Shown here piece by piece: positions 31,397 through 62,060 of a stretch of 64,000 nt of DNA. This stretch comes from Olivibacter sp. SDN3 (GTDB taxonomy: Bacteria; Bacteroidota; Bacteroidia; Sphingobacteriales; Sphingobacteriaceae): positions 1,116,001 to 1,180,000 of the forward strand of contig NZ_CP060497.1 of assembly GCF_014334135.1 (NCBI RefSeq). The letters run 5' to 3'. The notes under the pieces were generated by a model. That model made no database searches. It was not told where the DNA came from and saw only the letters and a program-made list of their open reading frames with translations. The position numbers and the translations under genes are program-made. Numbering within the stretch: position 1 is the stretch's first letter; each line of letters begins with the position of its first letter.

Positions 31397-32089
31397 TTGG
31401 AAATACTATTAATAGAAGATGAGCCAACTGTTATTTCGCTAATCAAGCGAGGGCTCAATGATGAAAAATATAATATAAGTGTTGCCATGGATGGATATAC
31501 CGGATTAAAGATGGCCGGTATGAATACATATGACCTAATCATCTTAGACATTATGTTGCCTGGTATGGATGGTTTGGAGGTATGCCATAACATAAGAATG
31601 GCTAATAGAGATATTCCGATACTTATCCTTTCGGCACTTGACCAAACCGAAGATATCGTGGCGGGATTTGAGCGTGATGCCGACGATTATCTCATTAAGC
31701 CTTTTAAACTTGAGGAGCTAAAAGCAAGAATAAAACGGCATACCCGAAGGGCAAAAAGACAGCGGGTCGCCCAGAAAGTAATAAAACTTGCCGATCTTTC
31801 TTTGGATATCGAGAGTAGAGACGTCACACGGGCGGGAAAATCAATAGCCTTAACTGCAACCGAATATCGCTTGTTGGAACACCTGATGGTTAATCATAAC
31901 AAGATTCTACCTCGCCTGGATATACTGGAAGAAGTCTGGGGAATGGACTTTAATTTGAGTACAAACGTAGTTGATGTATATGTCAACTATCTCAGAAAGA
32001 AAATCGATAAAAATTTTAGCCCCAAACTGATCCATACGGTCATTGGTATGGGCTACGTAATGCGTGTGCAATATGAAGATGAAGATTAG
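31397..32089 (+). CDS. OmpR/PhoB-family response regulator
   Basis: 230 residues: a receiver (E7/D8, phospho-acceptor D51 in LDIMLPGMDG, Lys in LIKPF) and a C-terminal winged-helix DNA-binding domain (ALTATEYRLLEHLMVN, VVDVYVNYLRKKID, IHTVIGMGYVM). The start must be the TTG at 31397, since a stop lies four codons upstream and the receiver begins at once. It overlaps the sensor kinase gene. It resembles metal-responsive CusR/CzcR-type regulators, and its place before the porin and urease genes suggests that it controls them, but this is inference. Confidence 0.9.
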   Translation: MEILLIEDEPTVISLIKRGLNDEKYNISVAMDGYTGLKMAGMNTYDLIILDIMLPGMDGLEVCHNIRMANRDIPILILSALDQTEDIVAGFERDADDYLIKPFKLEELKARIKRHTRRAKRQRVAQKVIKLADLSLDIESRDVTRAGKSIALTATEYRLLEHLMVNHNKILPRLDILEEVWGMDFNLSTNVVDVYVNYLRKKIDKNFSPKLIHTVIGMGYVMRVQYEDED

Positions 32090-33476
32090 AACGAAGATCA
32101 TTCTTTTGTTCTCGGGAATAATAACGCTGATTATTACCTTCTTTGCTATTTATGCATCTTACTTTACCTGGGATAGTCTAAAAACGAAATTCTTCCTACG
32201 CTTGGAAGAGAATGCCAGAATTGTAGGTACGCATACCATAGCCGGAGATTCCTACAATACCAAAATGTATTACGAGGTCAAAAGGAAGTATCTTGCTTTG
32301 CTATCGGAAGGAAATGATTACCTGTTACGGATTGCGAAGGGAAGTACGGAATTACGTTTTGACCCGAACTTACCGATGCCGAAGTCGTTCTACAGCGAGG
32401 CGATCACCAATGGTAAAGCAGAATACCTGCATAATGATACCGCGTATTTTGCCATGTACTTTGCAGATTCACTGCACAAAGATGATCTCCTGGTGATTTC
32501 TTCCGGTAGGGATAGTTACGGGCATGCAGAACAGGCCGATCTCGACAAGACCTTACTCTCGGGCGGCCTCATTGCCTTGGCACTCGGTATCGTTATCGCT
32601 TTCTATTTTGCCGATCACATCCTTACGCCCATCGCAACGATTAATGAAAATGTGCGTCAGATCAACATCAGCAATCTCAGTCTGCGCTTACAGAATACAA
32701 AGTCGCATAAACACGATGAGATCGCAAACCTGATCAATAATTTCAACGATATGCTGAATAGATTGCAGATTGCGGTCAAATCTCAGCAAAATTTTATAGG
32801 GAATGCTTCACACTCGCTGAGAACACCCTTAACGGTAATTGGTGGCGAGGCCGAAATCGTACTTCAGCGTTTAAAGGAAGATAAGGAGAGCCAGTACTCG
32901 TTAGAAATTATTGCCCGCGAAGTAGACAAGATGGTGTTGATCGTAAAAAACCTGCTGTTATTGGCACGAACGGGTTACGAAGGGCAAATCGAGCGCACCC
33001 AAATCATTCGAATAGATGAATTGCTATATGGCGTGAAGATTTCGGCCAATAGCCTGTACTCCAGCACACCCATTCATTTTGATTTTCATGCCATACCGGA
33101 TGATAGTCAGGAATTGCACATCTTGGCCAACAGAGATCTGCTCCATGTGGCCGTATCTAATCTGGTATTGAACGCATGCAAGTACGGCAAGAGCGCGCCG
33201 GTGGTCATCTCTTTGACGGTGAAGAATCAGCAAGTGGTGGTGACGATTAAAGATGAGGGTATCGGTATCCCTGAAAAAGAGCTGCCACATATATTCGAGT
33301 CCTTTTTCCGGGGAAGCAACACCACCGGTATATATGGAAACGGCCTTGGCCTATCGTTGACAAAGAATATTCTTGAACTACATGATATTGAGGTAGATGT
33401 CACCTCAAAAGTGAATGAAGGAACGCTCGTGACTTTACGTATTGCTATAGATACCGCTCCACAGCACTCCGGATAA
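32073..33476 (+). CDS. Membrane sensor histidine kinase (CusS/CzcS-like)
   Basis: About 467 residues: TM1 (about 7-29), a periplasmic sensor of roughly 120 residues, TM2 near 160-180, HAMP, HisKA, and HATPase_c with DEGIGIPEKELPHIFESFFRG and GNGLGLSL. The phospho-His is in NASHSLRTP (H247); the usual Glu after the His is Ser here, as in some members of the family. The ATG at 32073 overlaps the regulator stop by 17 nt; a GTG at 32064 is less likely. Partner of the adjacent OmpR-type regulator. The signal could be nickel, urea or pH, none of which can be told from the sequence. Confidence 0.88.
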   Translation: MKMKIRTKIILLFSGIITLIITFFAIYASYFTWDSLKTKFFLRLEENARIVGTHTIAGDSYNTKMYYEVKRKYLALLSEGNDYLLRIAKGSTELRFDPNLPMPKSFYSEAITNGKAEYLHNDTAYFAMYFADSLHKDDLLVISSGRDSYGHAEQADLDKTLLSGGLIALALGIVIAFYFADHILTPIATINENVRQINISNLSLRLQNTKSHKHDEIANLINNFNDMLNRLQIAVKSQQNFIGNASHSLRTPLTVIGGEAEIVLQRLKEDKESQYSLEIIAREVDKMVLIVKNLLLLARTGYEGQIERTQIIRIDELLYGVKISANSLYSSTPIHFDFHAIPDDSQELHILANRDLLHVAVSNLVLNACKYGKSAPVVISLTVKNQQVVVTIKDEGIGIPEKELPHIFESFFRGSNTTGIYGNGLGLSLTKNILELHDIEVDVTSKVNEGTLVTLRIAIDTAPQHSG

Positions 33477-33565: not shown

Positions 33566-34789
33566 ATGAGATCAACGGCTTATCATTTTATCATCTTACC
33601 ATGTGTTTTAGTTGCTTTAACTTTTAAAGGTTTCGCCGCTACAACTGATACTGCAAAAGTAAAAAACGCTAATGAAACTGCTCAATTGGGCATGGATACG
33701 GTTTCGGCAAAACAGGCCGCAACAGACAAGCGTTTTTTCATGAACGCACTATTGCGTACCGCTTTTCATGGCGACAGCTTTTTCAATGAAGGTGGACAGA
33801 ATAGCATAGGCCTGGATGAAGCGCGTATCGATATAGGGGGAAACTACAACGATCGCTTATCTTATCGGGTCAGGTACCGCTTAAATAGGGCATTCGCCGA
33901 AACCGGTCAGGATAATGGATCCCAAGCGTTGGACTGGGCATACCTGCATTATAAATTTGGTAACCAGAATAAATGGTCTGTTACCGCTGGTAAGCAGAGT
34001 GCATTGGTAGGGAGTTATGAGTTTCAAAATAACCCGATCTATGAGTTGCTGTTTACGGATTATGTCGACCGGATACTGAATCTATTTGTGGTGGGCGGTA
34101 CCTTGTCTCATCAGGTCGATAAGAACCATAGCCTGAATGTGCAGATTTATAATACAACCAACGAGGGTTTTGATCGCCTGTTCCAAACAAGGGGCTATAA
34201 CCAGGAAGACCTAAACGCGGCAAGTAATCCTCTGGGCACTTACTTCACCTGGATAGGAGCCTTTGCCGACCAGAAGATCCATACCAAGTGGTCTTACAAT
34301 ATTTCGCAATTCGCTAAAGGACATACCAATCACAACATCTCTCTTGCTAACAAACTCGCCCTGAATAAAACGTTGGTTTACCTGGATCTACAGTATTCTT
34401 ACCTTCCGGTAGATTATACGATGGTGGTGAACCCTGTATTAAATACGCACTACGGCCGCAGTGGCACCGACCAGGTGCTGGCAAGGGGTATTCAATATAA
34501 AACCGCTGTCTTGCGCTTGGATCAGATGCTAACAGATCACTGGGAGATATCATTAAAGGGCGCATACGAAACGGCCTCTTCCAGGAAAGATGAAGCGATA
34601 GGAAAAGATTTCAGAAAGAATTACACCTATACCGCTGCACTTCAATATAAACCCTACGAAAGCCAGGATTTGCGTTTCTATTTGGCGTACATCGGCAATA
34701 CCATAGATTATAGCCAGGTAATAAACGCTTCTAAAGCGGAGCTCAATCGTGTCTCCTTAGGACTGTTTTACACTATCCCAGTCTTCTAA
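33566..34789 (+). CDS. Outer-membrane porin-like beta-barrel protein
   Basis: 407 residues with a signal peptide (about 1-24, ending GFAA), a linker, and then many amphipathic strands such as GLDEARIDIGGNYNDRLSYR and WSVTAGKQSALVGSYEF. It ends in Phe, as outer-membrane barrels do. The GKQ and LDEARIDIG pattern resembles OprO/OprP-type porins. It sits between the two-component system and ureA on the same strand, so it may bring urea, nickel or another small solute through the outer membrane. Substrate unknown; the barrel assignment is good. Confidence 0.75.
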   Translation: MRSTAYHFIILPCVLVALTFKGFAATTDTAKVKNANETAQLGMDTVSAKQAATDKRFFMNALLRTAFHGDSFFNEGGQNSIGLDEARIDIGGNYNDRLSYRVRYRLNRAFAETGQDNGSQALDWAYLHYKFGNQNKWSVTAGKQSALVGSYEFQNNPIYELLFTDYVDRILNLFVVGGTLSHQVDKNHSLNVQIYNTTNEGFDRLFQTRGYNQEDLNAASNPLGTYFTWIGAFADQKIHTKWSYNISQFAKGHTNHNISLANKLALNKTLVYLDLQYSYLPVDYTMVVNPVLNTHYGRSGTDQVLARGIQYKTAVLRLDQMLTDHWEISLKGAYETASSRKDEAIGKDFRKNYTYTAALQYKPYESQDLRFYLAYIGNTIDYSQVINASKAELNRVSLGLFYTIPVF

Positions 34790-34877: not shown

Positions 34878-35180
34878 ATGCGTTTAACACCAAGAGAATC
34901 TGAAAAACTGTTGCTGCACCTGGCTGGTGAGCTGGCAGCCAAGCGATTAAAAAGAGGAGTAAAACTGAATTACCCGGAAAGCATTGCCTACATCAGTGCG
35001 CAGCTCATGGAAGAGGCAAGAGACGGGAAGACGGTTGCCGAACTGATGCAATACGGCACAACCTTATTGAAAAGAGATCAGGTAATGGAAGGTGTGCCCG
35101 AAATGATCCATGATGTACAATTGGAAGTGACCTTTCCTGATGGAACGAAGCTGGTTACGGTACACGAACCTATACGTTAA
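34878..35180 (+). CDS. ureA: Urease gamma subunit
   Basis: 100 residues, the family's standard length, beginning [20 protein letters not shown] with the conserved [11 protein letters not shown] (about 35-45) and [26 protein letters not shown] at the end. It is the smallest of the three structural subunits of nickel urease (ureABC)3. It carries no signal peptide. The gene opens the urease operon, 88 nt after the porin gene and 19 nt before ureB. Confidence 0.96.
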
Positions 35181-35199: not shown

Positions 35200-35580
35200 A
35201 TGATTCCTGGAGAATACATCCTTAAGAAAGAAGATATAAAAGCGAATGAGGGCTATAAAACCCTTAGCCTGTCTGTCACCAACACGGGAGATCGTCCCAT
35301 TCAGGTAGGATCGCACTATCATTTCTTTGAAGTAAATAAAGCCTTATCATTTGATCGGCCTAAAGCCTTTGGTATGCGCTTAAATATTCCGGCCAGCACA
35401 GCGGTTAGGTTTGAGCCCGGAGAGAAAAAAAGTGTTGTCTTGGTAGAAATCGGCGGAAACAAAGAGATCCACGGTTTTAACGGCCTTACCAACGGTAAAT
35501 ATACCGATGAAAAGGTCAAATCTGCAGCACTGGCTAAAGTGAAAGATAAAAAATTCAAGAGTACAAAGGCTACAAAATAG
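35200..35580 (+). CDS. ureB: Urease beta subunit
   Basis: 126 residues, starting MIPGEYILK, with the family motifs [21 protein letters not shown] (about 27-47) and [16 protein letters not shown]. It packs between gamma and alpha subunits of urease. The Lys-rich end ([14 protein letters not shown]) is somewhat longer than usual. No signal peptide is seen. It stands 24 nt before ureC; separate ureA and ureB genes distinguish this from the fused form of Helicobacter. Confidence 0.96.
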
Positions 35581-35604: not shown

Positions 35605-37458
35605 ATGTCAAATTGGAGTAGAAGAAAATGGATTAAAGTGGTTGGCCTTACCACGGCCGGCACAACAGCTTTAGGGCTCGATGCTCTGGCTTTGGAAAGA
35701 TTAGGTTTAGACGAAGCATCCGTAAAATATATCGATAACGAATTATATATCCCGCGCGATAAATATGCTGCCCTGTTTGGTCCTACAACGGGAGATAAGG
35801 TGCGTCTGGCAGACACGGAGCTTTTTATTGAAATTGAGAAAGATTATGCCGTTTACGGCGAGGAAAATAAATTTGGTGGAGGAAAAACGGTTCGCGATGG
35901 GATGGGGCAGTCTGCGCGTGCACTTAGGGATGAGGATGTGCTGGATCTCTGTATCACCAATGTCATCGTTATTGATCACTGGGGTGTTGTTAAAGGCGAT
36001 GTAGGTATAAAAGATGGTAAGATTGTGGGCATCGGCAAAGCAGGTAACCCCGATGTTCAGGATGGTATCACCAAAGGATTGATCATCGGTGCGTCAACGG
36101 AAGTACATGGTGGAGCAGGCATGATCCTTACTGCCGGCGGTGTGGATACGCATATCCACTTCATCAGCCCGACACAGGTAGAAACCGCTTTATACAGCGG
36201 TGTGACCACATTTATCGGAGGAGGAACAGGTCCGGTAGACGGTACTTTGGCGACTACCGTAACCTCGGGGAAATGGTATATCGAGCGCATGCTGGAAGCT
36301 TTTGAAAACCTTCCGGTGAACGTTGGCTTCTTCGGTAAGGGGAATGTTTCTACCACAAGGCCTATCGAAGAACAAATCGAAGCGGGTGCTTTAGGTGTGA
36401 AAATACATGAAGACTGGGGTTCTACTCCTGCTACTATTGATGCCGCTTTGAAAGTTGCCGACAAATATGATGTACAGGTAGCCATCCACACCGATACGTT
36501 GAATGAAGCCGGATTTCTGGAAGACACGGTCAACGCGATCGATGGCCGGGTTATTCATACGTTCCATACCGAGGGCGCGGGAGGCGGTCACGCACCTGAT
36601 ATTATTAAGATTTCCATGTATCCGAATATCCTCCCTGCTTCAACAAATCCAACAAAGCCCTATACCGTAAATACCGCTGAGGAACACCTGGATATGTTAA
36701 TGGTTTGCCATCACCTGGATAAGAACGTTAAAGAAGACGTTGCCTTTGCTGATTCCAGGATACGTCCGCAAACCATCGCAGCAGAAGATATTTTGCAGGA
36801 TATGGGTGTCTTTAGCATCATGAGTTCCGATAGCCAAGCCATGGGCCGTGTGGGAGAGGTCATCTCCAGGACTTGGCAAACGGCACATAAAATGAAGGTG
36901 CAAAGAGGAGCCTTGGATGAAGATAAAAAAGGAGATAATGACAATTTCCGGGTAAAACGTTATGTCTCTAAATTTACCATAAATCCGGCTAAAGCGCATG
37001 GAATTGACGAATATGTAGGATCGATAGAGCCGGGCAAGTATGCCGACCTCGTCTTATGGAAACCTGAACTGTTTGGCGCTAAACCTGAGCTCATTATCAA
37101 AAGTGGAATGATCCTCGGATCGAAAATGGGTGATGCCAATGCGTCTATCCCTACACCACAACCCATCATCTATCGCCCGATGTTTGGGTACTATGGCAAA
37201 GCATTGACGAAGATCTGCCTGAATTTTGTTTCGGCGGTTTCTTTGGAAAACGGCAATATCAAAAATCTAGGCCTTGCCCGCACGTCCTTGCCTGTTAAAG
37301 GATGTAGAAATGTGTTTAAAAAAGATATGGTGCATAATAATGCTACGCCAAATATAGAGGTTGACCCAGAGACTTATGAAGTTAAAGTGGATGGTGTTCT
37401 GGCTACGTGTGAACCGCTCAAGGAGCTTCCGATGGCCCAGCGATATTTCTTGTTTTAA
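35605..37458 (+). CDS. ureC: Urease alpha (catalytic) subunit with an N-terminal Tat-like signal
   Basis: 617 residues; family members have about 567. All catalytic residues are present, displaced by 49 from Klebsiella numbering: nickel ligands H183 and H185, the lysine to be carbamylated K266, H268, H295, H321, the flap C368/H369 and D409. The extra N-terminus has a twin-arginine motif SRRKWIK (residues 5-11), a moderately hydrophobic stretch [14 protein letters not shown] and a signal-peptidase-like site ALA (27-29). This predicts Tat export or membrane attachment of the folded enzyme, perhaps carrying UreA and UreB along. The only ATG before the family start is the one at 35605; a TTG at codon 30 is the alternative. 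Confidence 0.96.
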
Positions 37459-37478: not shown

Positions 37479-37967
37479 ATGATCCGTGTAGGCAAGGCGT
37501 TAGGTAATATCCGTGATAATGCAAGGCTCAGCATTTACGATGAGTTGGTTTTGGAGTGGTTTGAAACCGACAAAAACATCCTCCGAAAGCGAACGCGTGA
37601 GGGGAGAGAAATCGCCGTACGCAAACAGGTAGCTGCACCGCTTTATGATGGCGATATATTACATATAGAAGCGGACCTTGCTTTAGTGGTTAAGATACGT
37701 GCCTGTGCCTGTGTGGTCGTACGTCCACAAACGTTGAGGGAAATGGCTACCATATGTTTTGAAATAGGCAATAAACATATCCCGGTTTACATTAACGATG
37801 CACAAGAGGTCATAACTGCATATGAGAGACCGCTTTTTGCTTTATTGGCAAGAGGCGGTTTTCACCCTACAGAAGAACACCGGATTATACATCGTACCAG
37901 CACCCTTGCCTTGCACCGCTGGCCTACGGTTAATCGTAACATATTAATTAAGCAAAGGAATAGATGA
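37479..37967 (+). CDS. ureE: Urease accessory protein UreE (nickel metallochaperone), first copy
   Basis: 162 residues with an N-terminal peptide-binding-like domain and a C-terminal metal-binding domain. The interface nickel-binding His lies in FEIGNKHIPV (H100), and DGDIL and KIRACACVVV are typical. The tail has several scattered His residues but not the His-rich run of Klebsiella UreE. It hands nickel to UreG during activation. The last four bases overlap the start of ureF (ATGA). A second, divergent ureE closes the cluster at 41.3 kb. Confidence 0.9.
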   Translation: MIRVGKALGNIRDNARLSIYDELVLEWFETDKNILRKRTREGREIAVRKQVAAPLYDGDILHIEADLALVVKIRACACVVVRPQTLREMATICFEIGNKHIPVYINDAQEVITAYERPLFALLARGGFHPTEEHRIIHRTSTLALHRWPTVNRNILIKQRNR

Positions 37968-38650
37968 ATCCACTACTCACATTATTGCAAATCATTGACT
38001 CAGCGTTCCCCATAGGAAGTTTCACCCATTCCTATGGCTTGGAGACCTATATCAGTAAAGGCATCGTTAAAGACACACGTAGTGCACAGGAATACGCCAC
38101 TACATTGTTGGCGCATAGCATATATTATAATGATGCTGCTTTTTTTCAACAAACCTGGCAACTGTGTGATAAGCGTGCGGGTATACGGAAAGTCAGCGAG
38201 CTGGACAGCGTGGTCACGGCGCTGAAGGGGCCGTTGGAAATAAGGCAGGCAAGCCGAAAATTAGCCTTGCGTTTCCTTAAACTGACCGAAAAGCTGAAAC
38301 CGGTAAAGCGTTGTCAGACCTATCTGGAGCAGATGTTGAGCAAAAAAGTGCATGGACATTATCCCATGGCCTTCGCCATGTATGCCCACGCGCAAAAGAT
38401 ATCCTTCGAGGATGCCCTATCGGCCTTTTATTATAATACGCTAAATGGGGTAGTTACCAACTGCGCCAAACTGGTACCTATCAGCCAGACAGACGCGCAG
38501 GAGATCTTATTTAAGTTGCAACCCCTGATAAAGAAGCTGGTGGATACGCAAGCCGCGGTTTCTCCTGACATGATTGGTATCTGTTGCATAGCACAGGATA
38601 TCAGGAGTATGCAGCACGAAAAGCTTTATACAAGATTATATATTTCATAA
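37964..38650 (+). CDS. ureF: Urease accessory protein UreF
   Basis: 228 residues, all-helical, with the family start LLQIIDSAFPIGSFTHSYGLE and the motif LNGVVTNCAKLVPISQ in the C-terminal half. UreF binds UreD/H on urease and acts with UreG as a check on nickel insertion. It overlaps ureE by 4 nt and lies 6 nt before ureG. Confidence 0.93.
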   Translation: MNPLLTLLQIIDSAFPIGSFTHSYGLETYISKGIVKDTRSAQEYATTLLAHSIYYNDAAFFQQTWQLCDKRAGIRKVSELDSVVTALKGPLEIRQASRKLALRFLKLTEKLKPVKRCQTYLEQMLSKKVHGHYPMAFAMYAHAQKISFEDALSAFYYNTLNGVVTNCAKLVPISQTDAQEILFKLQPLIKKLVDTQAAVSPDMIGICCIAQDIRSMQHEKLYTRLYIS

Positions 38651-38656
38651 TAACAT

Positions 38657-39280
38657 ATGGCACAAACAGCGAGAAATTATATCAAAGTAGGTATAGCCGG
38701 CCCTGTAGGATCAGGGAAGACGGCACTTATAGAAAGGCTCACCCGAGCGATGTCTGATCAGTATAACATATGTGTGGTTACCAATGATATCTATACCAGA
38801 GAAGATGCTGAATTTTTAATGAAAAACTCAGCGCTTCCCGCAGAACGCATTGCGGGGGTGGAAACAGGCGGATGCCCACATACCGCGATACGCGAAGATG
38901 CATCAATGAATATTGAAGCGGTAGAAGAACTGGCGGAGCGTTTCCCGGAGACCGAAATCATCTTTGTGGAGAGTGGCGGCGATAACTTATCGGCAACCTT
39001 TAGCCCGGATCTCGCAGATGTTACCATCTTCGTCATAGACGTAGCTGAGGGCGATAAAATTCCCCGTAAGGGCGGTCCAGGGATTACCCGTTCGGATTTA
39101 CTCATCATTAACAAAATAGATCTTGCACCTTATGTCAATGCGGATCTTGGCATAATGGAGCGCGATGCCAAAAAAATGCGTGGCGAAAGACCTTTCATCT
39201 TTACTAATCTGATGAAGCTGGAAGGACTTGATAAAGTAATCGCTTGGATTAAAGAATACGCTTTATTGGAACAAGAATAA
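38657..39280 (+). CDS. ureG: Urease accessory GTPase UreG
   Basis: 207 residues, SIMIBI GTPase. P-loop GPVGSGKT (15-22), the nickel/zinc-binding CPH motif (73-75, in [11 protein letters not shown]), SGGDN and the guanine-specificity NKID are all present. UreG delivers nickel to apo-urease in a GTP-dependent way as part of UreG2F2D2. Strongly conserved; the start codon is normal for the family. Confidence 0.97.
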
Positions 39281-39290
39281 GCAACAGCAC

Positions 39291-40220
39291 ATGGATAGTA
39301 TTATCAGCATTAACGTAGCACAGGAAAGTAATAGAAGCGTACTGAAAGACAGTTTTCACAATGCACCGTACAAATTGGTGCATTATGGTGCACGGAATAG
39401 CTACGACCATCTGGAACTTATCATCATGAGCGCTTCCCCTGGCGTAATGGATGGTGACACCCTCACTATTCATGTCAACTTACAAGCGAATACCCAGCTC
39501 AAGCTGTACACACAGGCGTTCAATAAACTGCATCCAATGATTGAGGGGGCGCAGCAGCATATGGACGTTATCGTGGAAGAAGAGGGGCTTTTTCAATATA
39601 TTCCGCATCCTACCACACCGTTCAAAGGGTCAATCTACAAGACGATAACCAATATTCATCTGCAAAAGCATGCAACACTGATCTGGGGCGACATCATCTG
39701 CGGTGGCCGGATACATATGAACGAATCCTTCGCCTTTAGTCGCCTGCACAGTTTAACCAAGGTATTCTTTGCAGACGGACTGCGTTATTTCGACAATCAA
39801 TACCTCGCACCCAAAGAGCAACCGATTAAAAAAATGCTTTTCTTAGAGGGCTACACCCATCAGGGGACACTTTTATACGCTTCTCCATATGCCGATGAAT
39901 TGAAATTGGAATTAGATGAGATTTTAAAGGCCGAATATGAGGAAATCACTTATGGGTTTACCTCTTGCGCTGATGATATGGTCATGATAAGAATACTTGG
40001 GAATGATGGAGAGCTATTGTATAACTTCATGACCATGCTGGGGCAGTTATGCTGGGATTTTACTCAACATAAAATCACAGAAAAATCAGAGAAACCCCAG
40101 GAACCTATATCCATACCCGCTGGCCAAATAAAAAAATCGCCGGCACAAAAGAAGACGATAAAAAAAACAAGGCATAAAGAAAATAAAGCAGCCGCTTTAA
40201 AAATAGATGCTTATGCATGA
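39291..40220 (+). CDS. ureD: Urease accessory protein UreD/UreH
   Basis: 309 residues of the UreD family, the scaffold that binds apo-urease and contains the nickel tunnel. Recognisable are GVMDGDTLTIHVNLQANTQL, YIPHPTTPFKGS and WGDIICGGRIHM. The last ~45 residues, after WDFTQHKI, form a Lys-rich tail (KKSPAQKKTIKKTRHKENK) that the family does not normally have. The gene overlaps hypA at its end. Confidence 0.9.
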   Translation: MDSIISINVAQESNRSVLKDSFHNAPYKLVHYGARNSYDHLELIIMSASPGVMDGDTLTIHVNLQANTQLKLYTQAFNKLHPMIEGAQQHMDVIVEEEGLFQYIPHPTTPFKGSIYKTITNIHLQKHATLIWGDIICGGRIHMNESFAFSRLHSLTKVFFADGLRYFDNQYLAPKEQPIKKMLFLEGYTHQGTLLYASPYADELKLELDEILKAEYEEITYGFTSCADDMVMIRILGNDGELLYNFMTMLGQLCWDFTQHKITEKSEKPQEPISIPAGQIKKSPAQKKTIKKTRHKENKAAALKIDAYA

Positions 40221-40560
40221 AATCACCATTGTTAGAGATATTTTCAAGGTATTGGAAGAAGAATATCCAAATAACTATCGGGATATTATCAAAGTAGAAA
40301 TCCACGCGGGTTTGCTCAGCAATGTGCAACCCATATTGATACAAAATGCCTTTGAAGCCTTCATTGAGGATGAACCGCAGTATGCGGATACCGAGCTGGA
40401 GGTTAAACTCTTGCCCATTATAGCCCATTGCGCCAACTGTGCCAGAGACTTCGAGGTACACCTTCATCGATTTGTTTGCCCTTGTGGGAAACCTTCGGAT
40501 AAAATTGTACAAGGGGAAGAACTGCAGATCAGTCAGGTAATATTTGCAAATAAAACATAA
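40213..40560 (+). CDS. hypA: Nickel chaperone HypA
   Basis: 115 residues from the ATG at 40213. That start, not the ATG six bases upstream, gives the N-terminal MHE needed for nickel binding through His2. The zinc module has CANC and then CPCG, so the second pair is C-x-C in place of the usual C-x2-C. HypA passes nickel to HypB and, in Helicobacter, to urease as well as hydrogenase. The start overlaps the end of ureD by 8 nt, and no hydrogenase gene is present, so it probably serves urease. Confidence 0.88.
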   Translation: MHEITIVRDIFKVLEEEYPNNYRDIIKVEIHAGLLSNVQPILIQNAFEAFIEDEPQYADTELEVKLLPIIAHCANCARDFEVHLHRFVCPCGKPSDKIVQGEELQISQVIFANKT

Positions 40561-40565
40561 ACGAT

Positions 40566-41294
40566 ATGATAATGAATATGGAAACGAATCCAAAGAGCAA
40601 CAGGGCACCTGTAGGGTCTGTCCAATGCGATAACACCACATTAAACTTGCTTAAAGCTAACGACTTTGTCGCTAAAGCAATACGGGATAAATTGCCGGAT
40701 ATCACGATTGTGAATATTTGCTCTTCGCCAGGCAGCGGCAAAACAACGCTCTTGCAGGAAACCGGCAAACGTATAGGAAAAGAGCTGAAGATAGCCGTGC
40801 TCGTTGGTGATCCGGAAACGGAGCGTGATGCGGTAAGGTTAAAGAGCGTAGGTATCGATGCCTTACAGATCGTAACTGGCGGCATGTGCCATATTGAAGC
40901 GCAAATGATCTTACAGGCAATCGACCATATTGATTTGTCGGATGTCGACTTACTTATCATTGAAAATGTAGGAAACCTGGTATGCCCTGCCGCATTCGAC
41001 CTCGGTGAAGATTATCGCGTCACCTTGTTGGCCGCCACCGAGGGTGACGATAAGCCTAAGAAATACCCGCGCATGTTTCTCACCAGCGAGTTAATGGTGG
41101 TATCCAAAGCAGATCTTTTACCTTATGTTCCTTTTTCCGTGGAAGCGGCAACGATAGATGCACGTGAAGTAAATGCCAAATTGGACGTTATATCACTGAG
41201 CAGCATCACCGGTGAAGGAATCGACCAATGGTGCGATTGGTTAAAAAGCAAAGTCAATCAAAAGAAAAATAATAAAATAGCGTCCAATACATAA
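40566..41294 (+). CDS. hypB: Nickel-inserting GTPase HypB
   Basis: 242 residues, the HypB G domain. It has P-loop SSPGSGKTT (53-61), GDPETERDA (81-89), the metal-site Cys-His in GGMCHIEAQM (C108, H109), ENVGNLVCPA and the guanine motif SKADL. It lacks the His-rich and CXXCGC N-termini found in some HypB proteins. It lies 5 nt after hypA. HypB normally loads nickel in hydrogenase; here the neighbours are all urease genes. Confidence 0.92.
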   Translation: MIMNMETNPKSNRAPVGSVQCDNTTLNLLKANDFVAKAIRDKLPDITIVNICSSPGSGKTTLLQETGKRIGKELKIAVLVGDPETERDAVRLKSVGIDALQIVTGGMCHIEAQMILQAIDHIDLSDVDLLIIENVGNLVCPAAFDLGEDYRVTLLAATEGDDKPKKYPRMFLTSELMVVSKADLLPYVPFSVEAATIDAREVNAKLDVISLSSITGEGIDQWCDWLKSKVNQKKNNKIASNT

Positions 41295-41305
41295 AATGGT
41301 ATACG

Positions 41306-41761
41306 ATGCCTACACCCGAAATAAAAGTAGAAGTTATCTGTGATGCTTCGTTAAACAATGAAAAGGATATCGACTATCTGGATATAGAATGGTTTGAAGT
41401 TAATCGTAAAACGATAAAACGACAAAGTACCGGTGGACTAAATTTTTTCATTCAAAAAAGGGAAAAAAAGCCCCTATTCGATGGTGATATCTTATGGGCC
41501 GATGACAATACAGCAGTGCTGATACGTATAAAACCCTGTGATTGCATTGTATTAACCACAGCTGATTTAACAACCGTAGGACTTTTTTGTTCAGCTGTGG
41601 GCAATCAGCATTTACCCCTATTTTTGGCCGGGCAACAGACGCTCTGCTTAGCTTATGATGGCCGGCTCTATCAGGCGCTTCTGCATCAATATGGTTCGGC
41701 CGTCTCTATTGAAAGCAGACAGTTATTACCGCAGGATATGCTCCAGCCTTATCATAAATAG
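41306..41761 (+). CDS. Second UreE-like urease accessory protein
   Basis: 151 residues. It has the UreE layout and shares the marks of the first copy: DGDILWADDN, RIKPCDCIVL and the metal-binding His in VGNQHLPLFL (H102). Overall it is clearly diverged from it, so this is not a recent duplication. It could be specialised for receiving nickel from HypAB, whose genes lie directly upstream (11 nt gap). It ends only 14 nt from the convergent TonB receptor gene. Confidence 0.8.
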   Translation: MPTPEIKVEVICDASLNNEKDIDYLDIEWFEVNRKTIKRQSTGGLNFFIQKREKKPLFDGDILWADDNTAVLIRIKPCDCIVLTTADLTTVGLFCSAVGNQHLPLFLAGQQTLCLAYDGRLYQALLHQYGSAVSIESRQLLPQDMLQPYHK

Positions 41762-41775
41762 TGAAGATGCTCCGA

Positions 41776-44187
41776 TTAAAAAGAAAAGCCCATAGATAAC
41801 ATCACATTTCGTGGTGTGCCTACAAAACCGCGGGTATAATCAAAACCGCCGAGATAATAATACTTGTCGGTAATATTATTCAGGTTAAGCGTCAGTCTTA
41901 CGCCACGCAAGTAGTAATACACTGCAGCATTCCACACCTGATACGCAGGCCACTCATCCCATAATTGATTACCATCGGCATCCTCAGTTACGGGATTTTC
42001 CATCCGTCTCCCACTCACAAAATTCGTTCCTGCACCAAAGCCCAGGCCCTTTAGTGCGGCATTTGGAATGACGTATTTCATCCAGAGACCTCCCATGTGT
42101 TTAGGTGCATTGGCTAGTGGCATCCCTACTTCTGACGCGATGGAAGACGCTTTTACCTCGGTATGGTTAAAGCTATAGTTGGCCATCACCTGAAACTCCC
42201 TGGTTATCTGTCCCCGAAAATCCAGTTCTACTCCGCGGGAAATCACCTCCCCAGACTGTCTGTAGACAGGGAAGCCACTATCGCTAATTTCACCGGAGGC
42301 AATCATCATATTCTGCCGGGAGATATGAAATAAAGAGAGCTCGGTCTGCAATTGGTTATCAAAAAAACCTGTCTTCAAACCGGTCTCCACTTGGAAGCTG
42401 CGCTCCGCACCAAATGGCCTGTCTGCGCCGTATTGTTCATAATTGTGGATAAAATCAGCCCCTACCGGAACATAACCCTGTGAATAGCTGGCAAAGTAAT
42501 TCATTTGGTGATTGATCTGATAGGTCAAACCAAACCGTGGCAACCAGCTATGCTGGGTTGTTTCATACGATTGTGCTAAATCTGCACTGCTGGAGCGATA
42601 GTATTCATGACGTAACCCCATGATAAGATGCAAACGGCTGCCAATTGTCATCTGATCTTGCAGATAAAAACCATAACTTCTATAAGGATTGAGGAAGGGG
42701 AATTCGGCTTGATCCAGCCATAGGTAGGAACCTACATCGATAACGTCCCGAACAGGCTTTTCCAGATCAATGGTCAAAGGCACCTCTTCTCCATCGAGCA
42801 TACGACGCCTCGCCTCACGCTGCACATTGTTTCTATCGCCTCCATATTGTGCATAATCCACACCAAAAACCAAACGATGGTCATGCCCCGGCCTTCTAAA
42901 ATTATAACTGAGGTAACTGACCAAGTTATCCGTGTAGTCCTTAACATTTTTCGAAAGGAAGCGCATGTTCATGATCGTGTTTTGCGGCGGATTCGCAAAG
43001 GTATTGAGTGTACGGAACTCATTCAAATCCTCACTATAGATCGATTTCATATAGTTCACATGTATAGATAGGTCATGGGTAATATGCTGCGAGAACCGGG
43101 TCGAGAACGACAAGAACTTTGAGCGATAAAAATCTGTAGGTTGATTTACATTGAAGGCCCTATCCTGTGCATAGAAATCGTTATTTCGGATAACAAGGCC
43201 TCTATCAAGAAAACCATCAAAATCGTCATAGGTCAAGTCCACATCAATTTGGGTACCCTCAGCCGGACGAAATGTAAATGATGGAGCCACCAATATGTTC
43301 TTCCGCTGGTTGTTATCCCGAAAGGTACGCGAGTTTTCATAAGCGATGTTGAGTCGGTACAAAAACTTCTTATCCTGATCCAATGGGCCGCCCATATCCA
43401 GTGTGGAGCGTAGCGTTTGAAAGCTTCCCACCGCAAAGCCAATACTGGTTTTCTGTTCTTCAAGTGGCCTTTTCGTAACGAGGTTAACCGTGCCACCCGG
43501 TACAATATCCCCAAAGAGCGATGCCCCCGGCCCTTTCAGCACTTCTATACTTTCTAAGTTCGCTGTCATGGGCGTACGCCAGAAACTGGTACCGTAGCCA
43601 TAAGCGGAACGCATACCGTTCACGAGCCTTAAGCCGCTGGTGTAACCGCTATTGAACCCACGTATCGTTAAATCATCATAGGCGGAAGCTTGATTGACCC
43701 CCGCCAAATCCTGTACCATGTCGGTAATGACAAAAGCCTGTCTATCCTCCATAAATTCCCTACTCACCAATGATACCGATTGTGGCAGGTCTTTTAGGAT
43801 ACCCGAAAACTTTCCGCCTAATTCGGCTGTATTGACTAAATAGGAATTATTCCGCCTACCAGTAACCAACACTTCCTCCAACGCAACATCGGCAGGTGCA
43901 AGTTGGATTGACAAACCCTCAGAAGCAGAAAAGCTGCTATCCAGTCCTATTGTTTGCTCGGCATAACCAACGGCAGTTACCCTTATTGTCGCGGGTAGCT
44001 GTACCTTTTCGGAAAATGAAAAATAACCGTTTGTGCTCGTTTGCGTGACGTATTGATCAACTCTCAGTGTTACGGCAGAGAGACCATTACCTTGGCTACC
44101 GGTAACCCGACCGGTTAAAGAAACCGTCTGGGCATAGGCACCAACAATAGAAAGCAGCAAGAAAACGACTGTAGAAAAAATTCTCAT
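41776..44187 (-). CDS. TonB-dependent outer-membrane receptor (metal-chelate type)
   Basis: 803 residues: signal peptide (about 1-19, ending AYA), a carboxypeptidase-regulatory-like beta domain (about 22-105), a plug domain with LPQSVSLVSREFMEDRQ and LTIRGFNSGY, and a 22-strand barrel ending in GFSF. The sequence resembles siderophore receptors. It is the last gene of the minus-strand importer operon (ATGA overlap with the GNAT gene) and faces the urease cluster. Its cargo is therefore probably nickel or a nickel/iron chelate; iron-siderophore uptake cannot be excluded. Confidence 0.88.
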   Translation of the reverse strand: MRIFSTVVFLLLSIVGAYAQTVSLTGRVTGSQGNGLSAVTLRVDQYVTQTSTNGYFSFSEKVQLPATIRVTAVGYAEQTIGLDSSFSASEGLSIQLAPADVALEEVLVTGRRNNSYLVNTAELGGKFSGILKDLPQSVSLVSREFMEDRQAFVITDMVQDLAGVNQASAYDDLTIRGFNSGYTSGLRLVNGMRSAYGYGTSFWRTPMTANLESIEVLKGPGASLFGDIVPGGTVNLVTKRPLEEQKTSIGFAVGSFQTLRSTLDMGGPLDQDKKFLYRLNIAYENSRTFRDNNQRKNILVAPSFTFRPAEGTQIDVDLTYDDFDGFLDRGLVIRNNDFYAQDRAFNVNQPTDFYRSKFLSFSTRFSQHITHDLSIHVNYMKSIYSEDLNEFRTLNTFANPPQNTIMNMRFLSKNVKDYTDNLVSYLSYNFRRPGHDHRLVFGVDYAQYGGDRNNVQREARRRMLDGEEVPLTIDLEKPVRDVIDVGSYLWLDQAEFPFLNPYRSYGFYLQDQMTIGSRLHLIMGLRHEYYRSSSADLAQSYETTQHSWLPRFGLTYQINHQMNYFASYSQGYVPVGADFIHNYEQYGADRPFGAERSFQVETGLKTGFFDNQLQTELSLFHISRQNMMIASGEISDSGFPVYRQSGEVISRGVELDFRGQITREFQVMANYSFNHTEVKASSIASEVGMPLANAPKHMGGLWMKYVIPNAALKGLGFGAGTNFVSGRRMENPVTEDADGNQLWDEWPAYQVWNAAVYYYLRGVRLTLNLNNITDKYYYLGGFDYTRGFVGTPRNVMLSMGFSF

Positions 44188-44741
44188 AATTGATTGTTTT
44201 CAGTAAAAAAATTCACTGTATTTCTCCTTATCACTTTTGTTTTATCAATCACCATATGGAAGGTCTCAAAACCAGACTCTTCACAACACATAACCAGGTC
44301 AAATCCCTGCTTCAACCAAAAGTTGTATGCACCCTCCAAAAAAGGATGTGTATGCAAATACAGCAGTTCAACTCCTTGTCTATGCCCTGTCTTTTTCAAC
44401 TCTTGCACCAATTGTGTACCCAGTCCAAGTTTCCGATAAGCAGGTTCTACAAAGAGTCGAGCCACCTCCACAATCTTGTTTCCTGTAAAAGACCAGTATG
44501 GGAACCGGTGATCGTACGCCATCATTCCAATCGTACCGATAAGATTCCCTTGCGACGTACGTGCCTGAAGAAATGTACCTATAGAGGTATCCACATAGGT
44601 CGAAGAAAACGTCTGCAAATCTTTCGGCATAACCTCATGATTGAGCATCGGAAACAGTTCTTTTCGGGTTTCCAATACGTAAGCGACTACTTCCTCTCGG
44701 TCGCGGTCGCCTACCGGTAATATTTTTATATCATTCATCAT
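44184..44741 (-). CDS. GNAT-family N-acetyltransferase
   Basis: 185 residues with the acetyl-CoA-binding motif RKLGLGTQLVQELKKTG (about 113-129) and the preceding strand VEVARLFVEPAYR. It overlaps its neighbours by four bases on both sides, so it belongs to the importer operon. A GNAT in such a place could modify an imported or home-made metal chelator; the substrate is not readable. Confidence 0.82.
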   Translation of the reverse strand: MMNDIKILPVGDRDREEVVAYVLETRKELFPMLNHEVMPKDLQTFSSTYVDTSIGTFLQARTSQGNLIGTIGMMAYDHRFPYWSFTGNKIVEVARLFVEPAYRKLGLGTQLVQELKKTGHRQGVELLYLHTHPFLEGAYNFWLKQGFDLVMCCEESGFETFHMVIDKTKVIRRNTVNFFTENNQL

Positions 44742-45514
44742 CGCTGCTTTAGCTTAGGGATTATCAATGTTCGCCCTTCATGGTGGAGGCTGGTTAAAGC
44801 CACATGATATGTCTTTTCTAAGGTAGACAACAGGCCTTCCTCCTCTTTTTCTTCCAACGGATGCAGCTTTTTGTCCCGCATCACATAAAATCGGTCGCCA
44901 TACAGAAACGCCAGGTTAGGATCGTGCATCACGCATACCACGGTAGTCCCCGCTTTTACCAGACGTTTAAGGTGTTCCAGCACCGCTACCTGATAATGTA
45001 AATCGAGATGGTTGGTTGGTTCATCCAGCAATAAAACATCAGGTTGCTGTACCAAAATACGGCATAGTAATACCAGCTGCCGTTCGCCCCCCGAAAGAGA
45101 AGTGTATGGTTTATCCCTTAAATGCCATAACTGAAACGCTTGCAGGCTTTCTTCCACCAAATCAAAATCTAGCCGACGGGGCGCAAATCTGGAAAACGCG
45201 GCGCGTCCAGTCAAGACCACATCAAAAACGGTAAATGGAAAAGTCGTTTGATGAAACTGTGTCATGAAGCCAATCCGAACGCTACTTTCCTTCCCGGCTT
45301 TGATATGCTTGCGTTCTTTACCGTCAAACCACACTTCGCCGGTATATTGACGCTCCATGCCCGACAAGATATTGAAAAGTGTCGATTTCCCGCTGCCGTT
45401 TCTGCCGAGAATAACCGTCAATTCCTCCGCATAGAAATTAGCTTTTAGTTCAGCGAGCACTTGCTGCTTACCAAAAGAAAAAGATAGGCTGTTAATCTGT
45501 ATCAATTCTGTCAT
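44738..45514 (-). CDS. FecE/BtuD-type ABC transporter ATP-binding protein
   Basis: 258 residues. Walker A GRNGSGKST, signature LSGGERQL, Walker B VLLLDEPTNHLD and the H-loop VCVMHDPNLAF are all complete. It powers the permease encoded directly upstream, with which it overlaps by 4 nt. Such ATPases serve iron-siderophore, haem, cobalamin or nickel importers. Confidence 0.92.
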   Translation of the reverse strand: MTELIQINSLSFSFGKQQVLAELKANFYAEELTVILGRNGSGKSTLFNILSGMERQYTGEVWFDGKERKHIKAGKESSVRIGFMTQFHQTTFPFTVFDVVLTGRAAFSRFAPRRLDFDLVEESLQAFQLWHLRDKPYTSLSGGERQLVLLCRILVQQPDVLLLDEPTNHLDLHYQVAVLEHLKRLVKAGTTVVCVMHDPNLAFLYGDRFYVMRDKKLHPLEEKEEEGLLSTLEKTYHVALTSLHHEGRTLIIPKLKQR

Positions 45515-46530
45515 GCGTTCCAGTTTACAGCATTTCTACGCATCAGATAAATAAATAGAGGCGCACCCAATATCATAGTAAATACACCTACCGGAATTTC
45601 AAAGGGCATCACAGCCCGGGAAAAGTTGTCAATCAACAGCAGAAATGTTCCACCGATACTCATGTTGGCAAAAACACCGATCTGATTATTCGGCCCAAAA
45701 ATAATACGGCTAATATGCGGTACAATCAGCCCGAATAAGCTGATCATGCCGGCCGAGGCAACAGCCGAAGCCGTAATCATCGTGGCCAGCCCCACTACGA
45801 TAAACTTTATATTTCTGGGGTTGACTCCTACAGCCATCGCTTCCTGATCACCCAGCGCCAATAAATTAAGCTTCCAACGGAAGGCTGCAGTGGCCAACAA
45901 TCCACCTACGATCGGTAAAAAGGCGGTATGCACCTTATCCCAGGAGGCCGTGTGTAGATTGCCCATAGTCCACTGCACAATGGCCTGTAACTTGTATGGA
46001 TCACTCAAATATTGTAGTATGGTCAGGAATGCCGTAAAAACTCCCGTGATAATCATTCCAGACAACACCATCGTCACCAACGACGTCCTTACACCCGAAT
46101 AGGAAACGAGATAGGTAATACCCACCGCTATCATACCAAATATAAAAGCCGATAGATTAATCGGGATCAGCGGCACCAGCATAGACAATGCGGCCCCAAA
46201 AGCCGCCCCCGAAGATATACCCAACGAAAAGGGATCTACAATTGGATTTCTGAAGATAGCCTGTAACACCCCACCCGAAACGGCCAGGGCCGCACCGACC
46301 AAAAAAGTCAGCAGGATACGTGGCAGGCGTACCTGCCAAAGGATAATTTCTATGTCAGACTTGGCTACACCCAGCTCTTCTCCCCAAAAACGCCGCACAG
46401 CTGTTAAGGTATATCCGGCCAAATCCGATAGACCTACATAACTCGTACTCCCCAATGAAAGCGAAAAGAATAGTACAACAACCGGCACAACAATAAGCAA
46501 AAGGATTTTTAAACGCCTATACACCTGCAT
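45511..46530 (-). CDS. FecCD-family ABC transporter permease
   Basis: 339 residues with about ten membrane segments and the FecCD/BtuC signature (RLPRILLTFLVGAALAVSGG near 69-88, QAIFRNPIVDPFSLGISSGA near 89-108). It transports metal chelates or B12 across the inner membrane with the adjacent ATPase and binding protein. It lies 3 nt after the binding-protein gene. Confidence 0.93.
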   Translation of the reverse strand: MQVYRRLKILLLIVVPVVVLFFSLSLGSTSYVGLSDLAGYTLTAVRRFWGEELGVAKSDIEIILWQVRLPRILLTFLVGAALAVSGGVLQAIFRNPIVDPFSLGISSGAAFGAALSMLVPLIPINLSAFIFGMIAVGITYLVSYSGVRTSLVTMVLSGMIITGVFTAFLTILQYLSDPYKLQAIVQWTMGNLHTASWDKVHTAFLPIVGGLLATAAFRWKLNLLALGDQEAMAVGVNPRNIKFIVVGLATMITASAVASAGMISLFGLIVPHISRIIFGPNNQIGVFANMSIGGTFLLLIDNFSRAVMPFEIPVGVFTMILGAPLFIYLMRRNAVNWNA

Positions 46531-46533
46531 CTA

Positions 46534-47562
46534 TTATGCCTCCCGATTTCTCCTGTTGTACAGTTTGTCCAAGCTTTCCTGGATTTCGATCTCCAATTGT
46601 TCGGCGCCTTCCTCCGGATAACACCAATACCGCAGCTGTTTAGCGAAAAGCATAAACTTAATCGTGTGCGGATCAAAATTAAAGGTAGGCGATAAAACAT
46701 ACACCTGCTTATTCGCCACAGCCGGAAGGGACTCCAATTCCTTTAAACGATAGACGTCTTCCAGCTTCGAGTTCCACAAGACGATAATATCCGGGTTCCA
46801 TTTGTAAAGCATTTCCGCTCCGATATTGGGCGATTCCATGGTTAACGGACAAGCATTCTCGGCACCGGCCGCCTCGATGGAAAGATCCATAAGTGAACCC
46901 TTGCCTGAAGTAGACAGGATACGCCCTTTGGACCATGCATAGTACACCTTTTTACGCGTCTCCGCTGCTGGTCTGATCATTTTGGCCAAATCTTTTTCCA
47001 CAAAGGAAATCAGTTCCTCTGCTCTATCACTTTTGTCCAATAGCATCGCCACGCCACGTAGTTCCCTGTAAATACTTTCCTTATTTTTACTCGAAACAGC
47101 ATAAACCGGGATATTCAGCCCTTCCAACTGGGTGATGGTTTCCTTATCCTGCTCATAAACGATGGCCAAATCCGGCCCCAATCCAATAATGGATTCCACA
47201 TTGTTCGCACGCCCCCCAAAGGTGGGGGCAGCTATCGACTTACGCGCTATGCGTTCGTCCAACTTAGAAAAAAAGGCATATGATGATTCATTTTGATAAA
47301 CCTGTTCAGGAATCCCAATAATACGATTATTGGCTTCCAACATAAATAATTCATCAACCATGGGCTCAAACAACACAACTACACGTCGCGCTGGTTCGGC
47401 GAGCTGAATAGCTTTCCCTCTTGAATCAATAACTTTTATATTATAGGTATCAGAAGCCCCCTTAGCAGCATCAGTAGTATTACATGCCACCAGATTAAAA
47501 AGTAATAGCATCCCTGCAATTACTGCCAAACTCCTAAAAAATAGAGAAGTATCTTTGCTCAT
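46534..47562 (-). CDS. Metal-chelate ABC transporter substrate-binding lipoprotein
   Basis: 342 residues with a lipoprotein signal (lipobox LVAC, Cys27) and the class III periplasmic-binding fold: VVVLFEPMVDELFMLEANNRIIGIP in the N-lobe, the long connecting helix and WNPDIIVLWN in the C-lobe. It is the first gene of the five-gene operon (binding protein, permease, ATPase, GNAT, TonB receptor). Relatives bind ferric siderophores, haem, B12 or nickel chelates. A TATTTTTG promoter element lies 4 nt before the ATG. Confidence 0.9.
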   Translation of the reverse strand: MSKDTSLFFRSLAVIAGMLLLFNLVACNTTDAAKGASDTYNIKVIDSRGKAIQLAEPARRVVVLFEPMVDELFMLEANNRIIGIPEQVYQNESSYAFFSKLDERIARKSIAAPTFGGRANNVESIIGLGPDLAIVYEQDKETITQLEGLNIPVYAVSSKNKESIYRELRGVAMLLDKSDRAEELISFVEKDLAKMIRPAAETRKKVYYAWSKGRILSTSGKGSLMDLSIEAAGAENACPLTMESPNIGAEMLYKWNPDIIVLWNSKLEDVYRLKELESLPAVANKQVYVLSPTFNFDPHTIKFMLFAKQLRYWCYPEEGAEQLEIEIQESLDKLYNRRNREA

Positions 47563-61871: not shown

Positions 61872-62060
61872 ATGTTAAACACAGTTTTATTGGCTATGAT
61901 TGGTGGGCCTGAGATAGCAATTATCGTACTTGCCTTGTTGTTGTTGTTTGGAGGGAAAAAAATTCCTGAGCTAATGCGAGGGCTAGGTAGAGGAGTGCGT
62001 GAGTTTAAAGAGGGGCAGGCCGGAACAGCAAAAGATGATGCTAAAGAAGAACAGCAATAA
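61872..62060 (+). CDS. tatA: Twin-arginine translocase subunit TatA
   Basis: 62 residues. A short N-terminal membrane helix (EIAIIVLALLLLF), the hallmark FGGKKIPELMRGLGRGVREFK hinge and amphipathic helix, and an acidic tail are all visible. TatA multimerises to form the passage for folded proteins with twin-arginine signals. TatC is not in the window. Its presence makes the Tat-like signal on UreC meaningful. A terminator follows. Confidence 0.93.
   Translation: MLNTVLLAMIGGPEIAIIVLALLLLFGGKKIPELMRGLGRGVREFKEGQAGTAKDDAKEEQQ

Follow-up and report, generated by a model that had tools for sequence, protein, structure and literature searches.

The three-subunit urease of bacteria, UreABC of the K. 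aerogenes type, is cytosolic; in the usual view urea has to be brought to the enzyme inside the cell, and its maturation by UreD, UreF, UreG and UreE is established. Signals of the twin-arginine (Tat) pathway have, close to their N-terminus, a motif of the type (S/T)RRxFLK. Diameters of 20-70 Å are given for Tat substrates, and E. coli PaoABC is a heterotrimer with proven Tat export on one signal (PMC4273604). Searches of open PMC papers brought up no description of a Tat-exported urease, in line with the original prediction, which knew of none. The Tat passages of PMC7305310, PMC11327836 and PMC13332983 concern other proteins, not urease.

The window, by which we mean the whole 64,000-nucleotide stretch of Olivibacter sp. 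SDN3 that was analysed, encodes a urease whose catalytic subunit bears an N-terminal extension resembling a Tat signal. Judging from the sequence comparisons set out below, it is likely that UreABC receives its nickel in the cytosol and that Tat then exports it by means of the UreC signal, urea being hydrolysed in the periplasm. The UreC gene is made up as follows:

35605..37458, + strand: ureC, catalytic (alpha) subunit of urease, 617 aa including the N-terminal extension (PF00449/PF01979, solved-urease alignment, intact active site)
35605..35691, + strand: predicted Tat-type signal peptide of UreC, codons 1-29 (n-region, h-region, c-region DALA)
35692..35748, + strand: 19-residue linker joining the signal to the urease alpha fold; its length varies in relatives, the RR block being fixed

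The protein matches PF00449 (E 3.5e-54) and PF01979 (E 1.2e-81). Because the Urease_alpha match begins at residue 49, which is profile position 3, and the best solved urease chain, 8hcn_C, aligns with UreC 49-617 (E 2.8e-250) such that residue 49 equals its residue 4, the addition comes to approximately 45-49 residues, depending on the choice of family start. Within it lie RR at 6-7, SRRKWIK at 5-11 and ALA at 27-29, all as first described. SRRKWIK fits the twin-arginine motif, with W replacing the usual F; the h-region is uncharged and of moderate hydrophobicity, comprising 14 residues with a mean Kyte-Doolittle value of 1.39, and cleavage of the predicted signal after A29 is probable. The active site behind the extension had been described as intact, and this holds: the nine catalytic and nickel-site positions (H183, H185, K266, H268, H295, H321, H369, R385 and D409), each at its K. 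aerogenes number plus 49, are all kept in the window UreC (9/9). They include the nickel ligands, the carbamylated lysine and the catalytic His and Arg, roles which we take in part to be those of the K. aerogenes urease. An AlphaFold2 model of UreC (18 rows) had a mean pLDDT of 33.3 and was set aside. The same genome contains tatC, and the tatA gene expected near 61.9 kb is present:

61872..62060, + strand: tatA gene (TatA/B/E family; PF02416, E 1.7e-15)

Counts of UreC sequences refer to 57 distinct extended and 89 distinct ordinary proteins, a first sorting having given 88 and 98 loci, respectively (54 and 88 distinct). The 57 take in four Chitinophaga genes that the search pattern had not caught, while L104 was counted as ordinary since its urease start is most likely MKKISRKEY, despite an upstream RR. 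Genes with fewer than 400 residues after the motif (e.g., L057) and loci with the motif off pattern were left out, and G261, whose UreC is broken across two contigs, stands outside the RR reading. The nine active-site positions are identical in 57/57 extended and 89/89 ordinary sequences. The twin arginines are present in all 57 extended UreC, with W at -2, W at +3, I at +4, K at +5 and G at +8 from the first R equally invariant. Their codons vary, being AGA (54), AGG (2) or CGG (1) for the first arginine and CGC (27), AGA (25), CGG (3), CGT (1) or AGG (1) for the second. The pair is also kept in 29/29 relatives that align from residue 1 with a whole-protein query, which does not select for RR, and the conservation of RR among homologs that the original prediction called for is thus borne out.

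A score matrix was built from 30 Tat signals of the window's own genome, out of 54 TIGR01409 matches. With it the window UreC scores 19.2 bits, and scores of 8.2-26.4 bits are obtained across the 57 extended UreC. In leave-one-out scoring, the 30 training signals range from 1.6 to 44.7 bits (median 28.5) and three score below UreC, which therefore falls in the lower part of the range of the genome's own Tat signals. As background, 141 RR sites close to other ORF starts have a median of -23.9 bits; three of these reach 19.2, and all three resemble Tat signals. A score within the own-genome range, together with the constancy of RR, supports the proposal that the UreC extension is a Tat signal.

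The end of the signal bears on whether it is removed. ALA had been put forward as one part of the signal, its conservation to be checked among homologs: it occurs in the window and is matched by AFA or AYA in Chitinophagaceae, where four Chitinophaga loci and one Pseudoflavitalea locus have a cleavage region of GLNKAFA-Q, GLNKAYA-Q or GLNNAFA-Q, but most Sphingobacteriaceae relatives have ALG or SLG at the presumed cleavage site and not AXA. Many relatives carry K, R or H just N-terminal to this site, which is reminiscent of the Sec-avoidance charge known in Tat signals. The ALG and SLG endings, like the linker of approximately 20 residues after the signal, would suit a UreC that is exported by Tat with its signal uncleaved, leaving urease anchored to the inner membrane on its periplasmic side. 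This arrangement appears improbable, given the AFA-Q and AYA-Q of Chitinophaga and Pseudoflavitalea, the ALA of the window and an h-region that is short for a stable anchor; its uncharged length is 12-23 residues among the 12 rows listed, window included, and just 12 residues in three of them.

The extension, read as a cleavable Tat-type signal, was followed through several genome samples. UreC was found in 41 of the 301 genomes of the family sample: 30, including the window's, match the whole 617 residues, the gene of G261 is split over two contigs, and 25 full-length matches begin at residue 45-51, with nothing between these and the whole matches. Both kinds of urease occur in 15 genomes of this sample. 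Class-wide, UreC was present in 8/395 genomes and extended only in the window's. A scan of named organisms with the alignment of N-termini confirmed 49 extended loci out of 72 pattern-matching stretches; because its patterns partly select for RR, it speaks to spread and not to RR conservation. These loci lie in Sphingobacterium, Pedobacter, Pontibacter, Rufibacter, Dyadobacter, Chitinophaga and Pseudoflavitalea.

Per-family and per-order samples, which overlap in part, were searched with whole-protein queries. Chitinophaga's family had UreC in 33/294 genomes (extended in two), Pontibacter's family in 103/200 (thirteen extended copies in ten genomes) and Dyadobacter's family in 17/200 (extended in one). 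In Dyadobacter's order the enzyme was found in 53/390 genomes and was extended in two, of which the newly found one (L225) again has RR and ALA. Extended UreC is therefore a minority form. Within Pontibacter's family, G681, G1114 and G684 have two extended copies each; in G681 (L232) and G1114 (L233) the second copy retains RR and belongs to an operon that comprises ureABCEFGD, hypA and hypB. In a tree of the UreC core only, made by a quick method from 34 extended and 55 ordinary rows, a single branch (SH-aLRT 99) separates all extended UreC, which come from four families, from the ordinary ones. The extended UreC are one clade.

The genes around ureC in the window are these:

31397..33476, + strand: two-component system, DNA-binding response regulator and histidine kinase (PF00072/PF00486, PF00512/PF02518)
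33566..34789, + strand: outer-membrane porin, Porin_O_P family (PF07396), separated by 88 bp from ureA downstream
34878..35180, + strand: ureA, urease gamma subunit, without N-terminal extension (PF00547, residues 1-99)
35200..35580, + strand: ureB, urease beta subunit, without extension, lysine-rich C-terminus, pI 9.73 (PF00699, residues 3-100)
37479..37967, + strand: ureE, nickel chaperone (PF02814/PF05194)
37964..38650, + strand: ureF (PF01730)
38657..39280, + strand: ureG GTPase (PF02492; called ureG by its position in the operon)
39291..40220, + strand: ureD (ureH) (PF01774)
40207..40560, + strand: hypA, nickel chaperone (PF01155)
40566..41294, + strand: hypB-type GTPase (PF02492; named from its place beside hypA)
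41306..41761, + strand: second UreE-like protein (PF02814, E 3.9e-5, 23.5 bits, under the Pfam cut-off of 26.9)
41776..44187, - strand: TonB-dependent receptor (PF00593/PF07715)
44738..47562, - strand: FecCD-type ABC importer, ATPase, permease and binding protein (PF00005, PF01032, PF01497)

The order is thus regulator, kinase, porin, ureABC, ureEFGD, hypA, hypB and second ureE, with the TonB receptor, a GNAT protein and the FecCD-type importer on the other strand. Spacings from ureA to the second ureE are -14 to 24 bp, and ureA, ureB and ureDEFG stand together in one operon. The UreA and UreB proteins start where their families do and have no export signal of their own. From its context, the FecCD-type importer probably carries nickel or a nickel chelate. 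Elsewhere, the window encodes a protein of 1539 residues in which an AcrB-type RND pump is fused to an OEP (outer-membrane efflux) domain (16359-20978, - strand). It also encodes a large histidine kinase of the hybrid type (4340-8410, + strand) that contains NIT, a domain for the sensing of nitrate and nitrite, as well as GAF and three receiver stretches.

Gene context was compared over 50 Tat-urease loci (49 named loci, six of them shorter than 20 kb, plus the window). A porin of the same cluster is present in 45/50 and, in 36/49, lies on the same strand directly upstream of ureA; it was also seen at one ordinary locus (L109). The kinase cluster occurs in 41/50 loci and the regulator cluster in 40/50, hypA in 32/50 (a count that did not capture the window's own hypA), the FecCD-type importer clusters in 29, 27 and 23 of 50, and the TonB receptor cluster in 10/50. 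In five Chitinophagaceae loci (L083-L087), the porin is followed by a small gene that looks, by eye, like that of the nickel regulator NikR. A second UreE-like gene beside hypB recurs in Tat-urease loci and is also found beside ordinary Sphingobacterium urease loci. HypA and HypB might have been thought to serve a hydrogenase, but this was ruled out, as no NiFe hydrogenase was found in the 47 Tat-urease genomes searched; they therefore probably serve urease.

Urea importers are distributed differently around the two kinds of urease. On the ordinary side the comparison rests on 30 loci, that is, on all but two (G073 and G291) of 32 full-length matches. The UT cluster was found in 0/50 Tat-urease loci vs 16/30 ordinary loci, and urt-type clusters in 0/50 vs 5/30; at E 1e-3 there were no UT or urt relatives in the Tat-urease loci. 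Fifteen of the 16 UT genes coincide by coordinates with Pfam UT hits, the sixteenth genome lying outside that search. At the genome level, UT or UrtA exceeded the cut-off in 3/16 genomes with extended urease only (G261 counted), 15/15 with both ureases and 6/10 with ordinary urease only. Fisher's test of 3/16 vs 21/25 gives p 5.6e-5, a value that overstates the difference because the genomes are related and kinship was uncorrected. The window genome has no UT, and its UrtA-like match is weak (57 bits vs a cut-off of 492.75).

Among 20 named Tat-urease genomes, some of which belong to the 41 above, seven have UT: 3/5 in Chitinophaga and Pseudoflavitalea, 4/6 in Pedobacter and 0/9 in Pontibacter, Rufibacter and Dyadobacter. 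The UT of C. qingshengii lies ∼3.5 kb from that genome's ordinary urease. A search for UT only found none in G684, G685 and G689, members of Pontibacter's family with both kinds of urease. Around the UT genes of the three genomes with Tat-urease only, no other urea pathway was found in the surrounding 16-kb stretches, either by eye or by BLAST against the study's gene set, and these UT genes remain an exception to the importer pattern. The correlation between Tat-urease and importer absence is good but not strict.

The partner subunits also differ. Values were obtained for 41 UreA and 49 UreB of the 50 Tat loci, and for 16 and 20 of the 30 ordinary loci. The mean pI of UreB is 9.70 at extended loci (46 distinct, 8.83-10.25) vs 7.05 at ordinary loci (16 distinct, 5.93-9.56); that of UreA is 7.96 (23 distinct, 5.49-9.39) vs 5.98 (12 distinct, 5.50-6.41), the window UreA, at pI 6.29, not being basic. 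The flap cysteine of urease is described as the target of known inhibitors in the part of PMC7433671 that deals with it. At this position (K. aerogenes Cys319; window residue 368) Cys is present in 89/89 ordinary UreC, and Val in 16/57 extended UreC (L028, L030, L031, L058, L060, L061, L063, L064, L066, L067, L069, L072, L082, L149, L150 and L157); the window UreC keeps Cys. On the UreC tree, well-supported branches force three changes at this site, which we read as losses of Cys because Cys is found in all ordinary relatives. Flap cysteine loss occurs in some other ureases too, and for this reason it is supporting evidence only. Gene context, importer distribution, subunit charge and cysteine loss all agree with what would be a periplasmic enzyme.

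This agreement has to be weighed against a second alternative, that the extension is a docking peptide of the cytosol (e.g., for a membrane face or an accessory protein) which mimics a Tat signal, with urease remaining cytosolic. Curated Tat models do not report the UreC N-terminus: it is absent among the 54 matches of the TIGR01409 search of the genome at E up to 10, and Pfam and NCBIfam scans of 20 extended UreC N-termini matched no Tat model. Its WNRRxWIKxVG block is also tighter than the own-genome Tat signals are among themselves, although the latter come from unrelated proteins, and at +3 it has W in 57/57 extended UreC, where 27/30 of those signals have F. Even so, we consider a docking role very unlikely, since the parts of a Tat signal are present in order and the extension coincides with loci free of UT and urt, with basic partner subunits and with the repeated change of the flap Cys.

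A Tat-type signal would need to be translated, and the reading frame argues that it is. After codon 1, the next methionine of the window UreC is residue 100, and up to codon 62 no start-type codons occur other than GTG12 and TTG30. The pN/pS test drew on 376 same-length pairs, with 183, 63 and 129 pairs in three divergence bins (375 in total). Values were 0.235, 0.083 and 0.036 for the extension and 0.125, 0.062 and 0.016 for the core, synonymous change in the first bin being close to saturation; the extension is therefore constrained, somewhat less than the core. It is under purifying selection, and since it is also present in relatives from four families, it is more than chance. That the true start is GTG12 or TTG30, both present in the window gene, which would leave the upstream part untranslated and the enzyme cytosolic, is hardly credible in view of this selection, of the lack of any conserved downstream start among the 57 extended genes, of 37/57 genes without an in-frame ATG after RR within the extension, and of an in-frame stop two codons 5' of the first ATG in several relatives. 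A misread start of ureC was rejected on the same grounds, and the extension is an addition, as had been claimed.

From the sequence, its conservation, the single clade, the gene context and the correlated changes, we infer export, hitchhiking, cleavage and the passage of urea through a porin, as follows. UreA, UreB and UreC would assemble in the cytosol and be loaded with nickel by UreD, UreF, UreG and UreE, aided by HypA and HypB. The folded UreABC would then pass through the Tat translocase by means of the single UreC signal, with UreA and UreB as hitchhikers, and signal peptidase would cut after A29 (at ALA in the window, and at ALG, SLG or AFA in relatives). The form in which the enzyme crosses is the least certain step. 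A urease trimer of protomers is larger than 20-70 Å and thus exceeds the Tat range, so we favour a route in which the alpha-beta-gamma protomer would cross and trimerise outside. Urea would enter through the outer membrane, probably by way of the Porin_O_P protein encoded upstream, and be split in the periplasm, the ammonium then being taken in by ordinary transport; an inner-membrane urea importer would be unneeded because urea is split after outer-membrane entry. Since the export tag is conserved, urea is probably split outside the inner membrane in these bacteria.

The original prediction is supported, and on stronger grounds than it gave: the extended ureases probably form a conserved lineage of periplasmic enzymes, a known enzyme on a known pathway. 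More broadly, it seems fairly likely that the whole Bacteroidota urease lineage is periplasmic by design, with one Tat signal, its own porin and its own two-component system, and that several bacteria run cytosolic and periplasmic ureases for different tasks. If true, a periplasmic urease would alter the site at which these bacteria, which live in soil, in water or with hosts, release nitrogen and alkali from urea, and inner-membrane urea uptake would be bypassed. Urease would also be an unusually large nickel-loaded Tat passenger.

Of the known systems, E. coli PaoABC resembles the proposed arrangement in being a folded complex with a Tat signal on one subunit and two subunits without (PMC4273604). 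It differs in being an aldehyde oxidoreductase with other chemistry, its export is proven where that of urease is inferred, and the predicted urease signal is on the catalytic subunit, in contrast to PaoABC. E. coli hydrogenase 2 (HybOC) is described as a nickel enzyme finished in the cytosol and exported folded, with a hitchhiker, on one signal; unlike the urease, that signal is on the small subunit, which is without the nickel site (PMC4273604). A HybOC-type hydrogenase was found in none of the 47 Tat-urease genomes searched. The K. aerogenes-type UreABC shares with the window enzyme its three subunits, the same nickel site and the accessory ureDEFG, whereas the window has a UreC with an export-type extension, a locus without UT or urt and a strongly basic UreB. 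A further relative is the second, ordinary urease of the Sphingobacterium genomes with both kinds, which is of the same enzyme family, has the same accessory genes and has a UreC 71-74% identical to the window's (59% in one case). It is without the extension, its UreB is near neutral and its flap Cys is kept, and a UT gene lies nearby in 14/15 genomes, with UrtA in the other one. Where a genome has both ureases, what may be the same enzyme can readily be compared across two compartments, and with it the repeated change of the reactive flap Cys.
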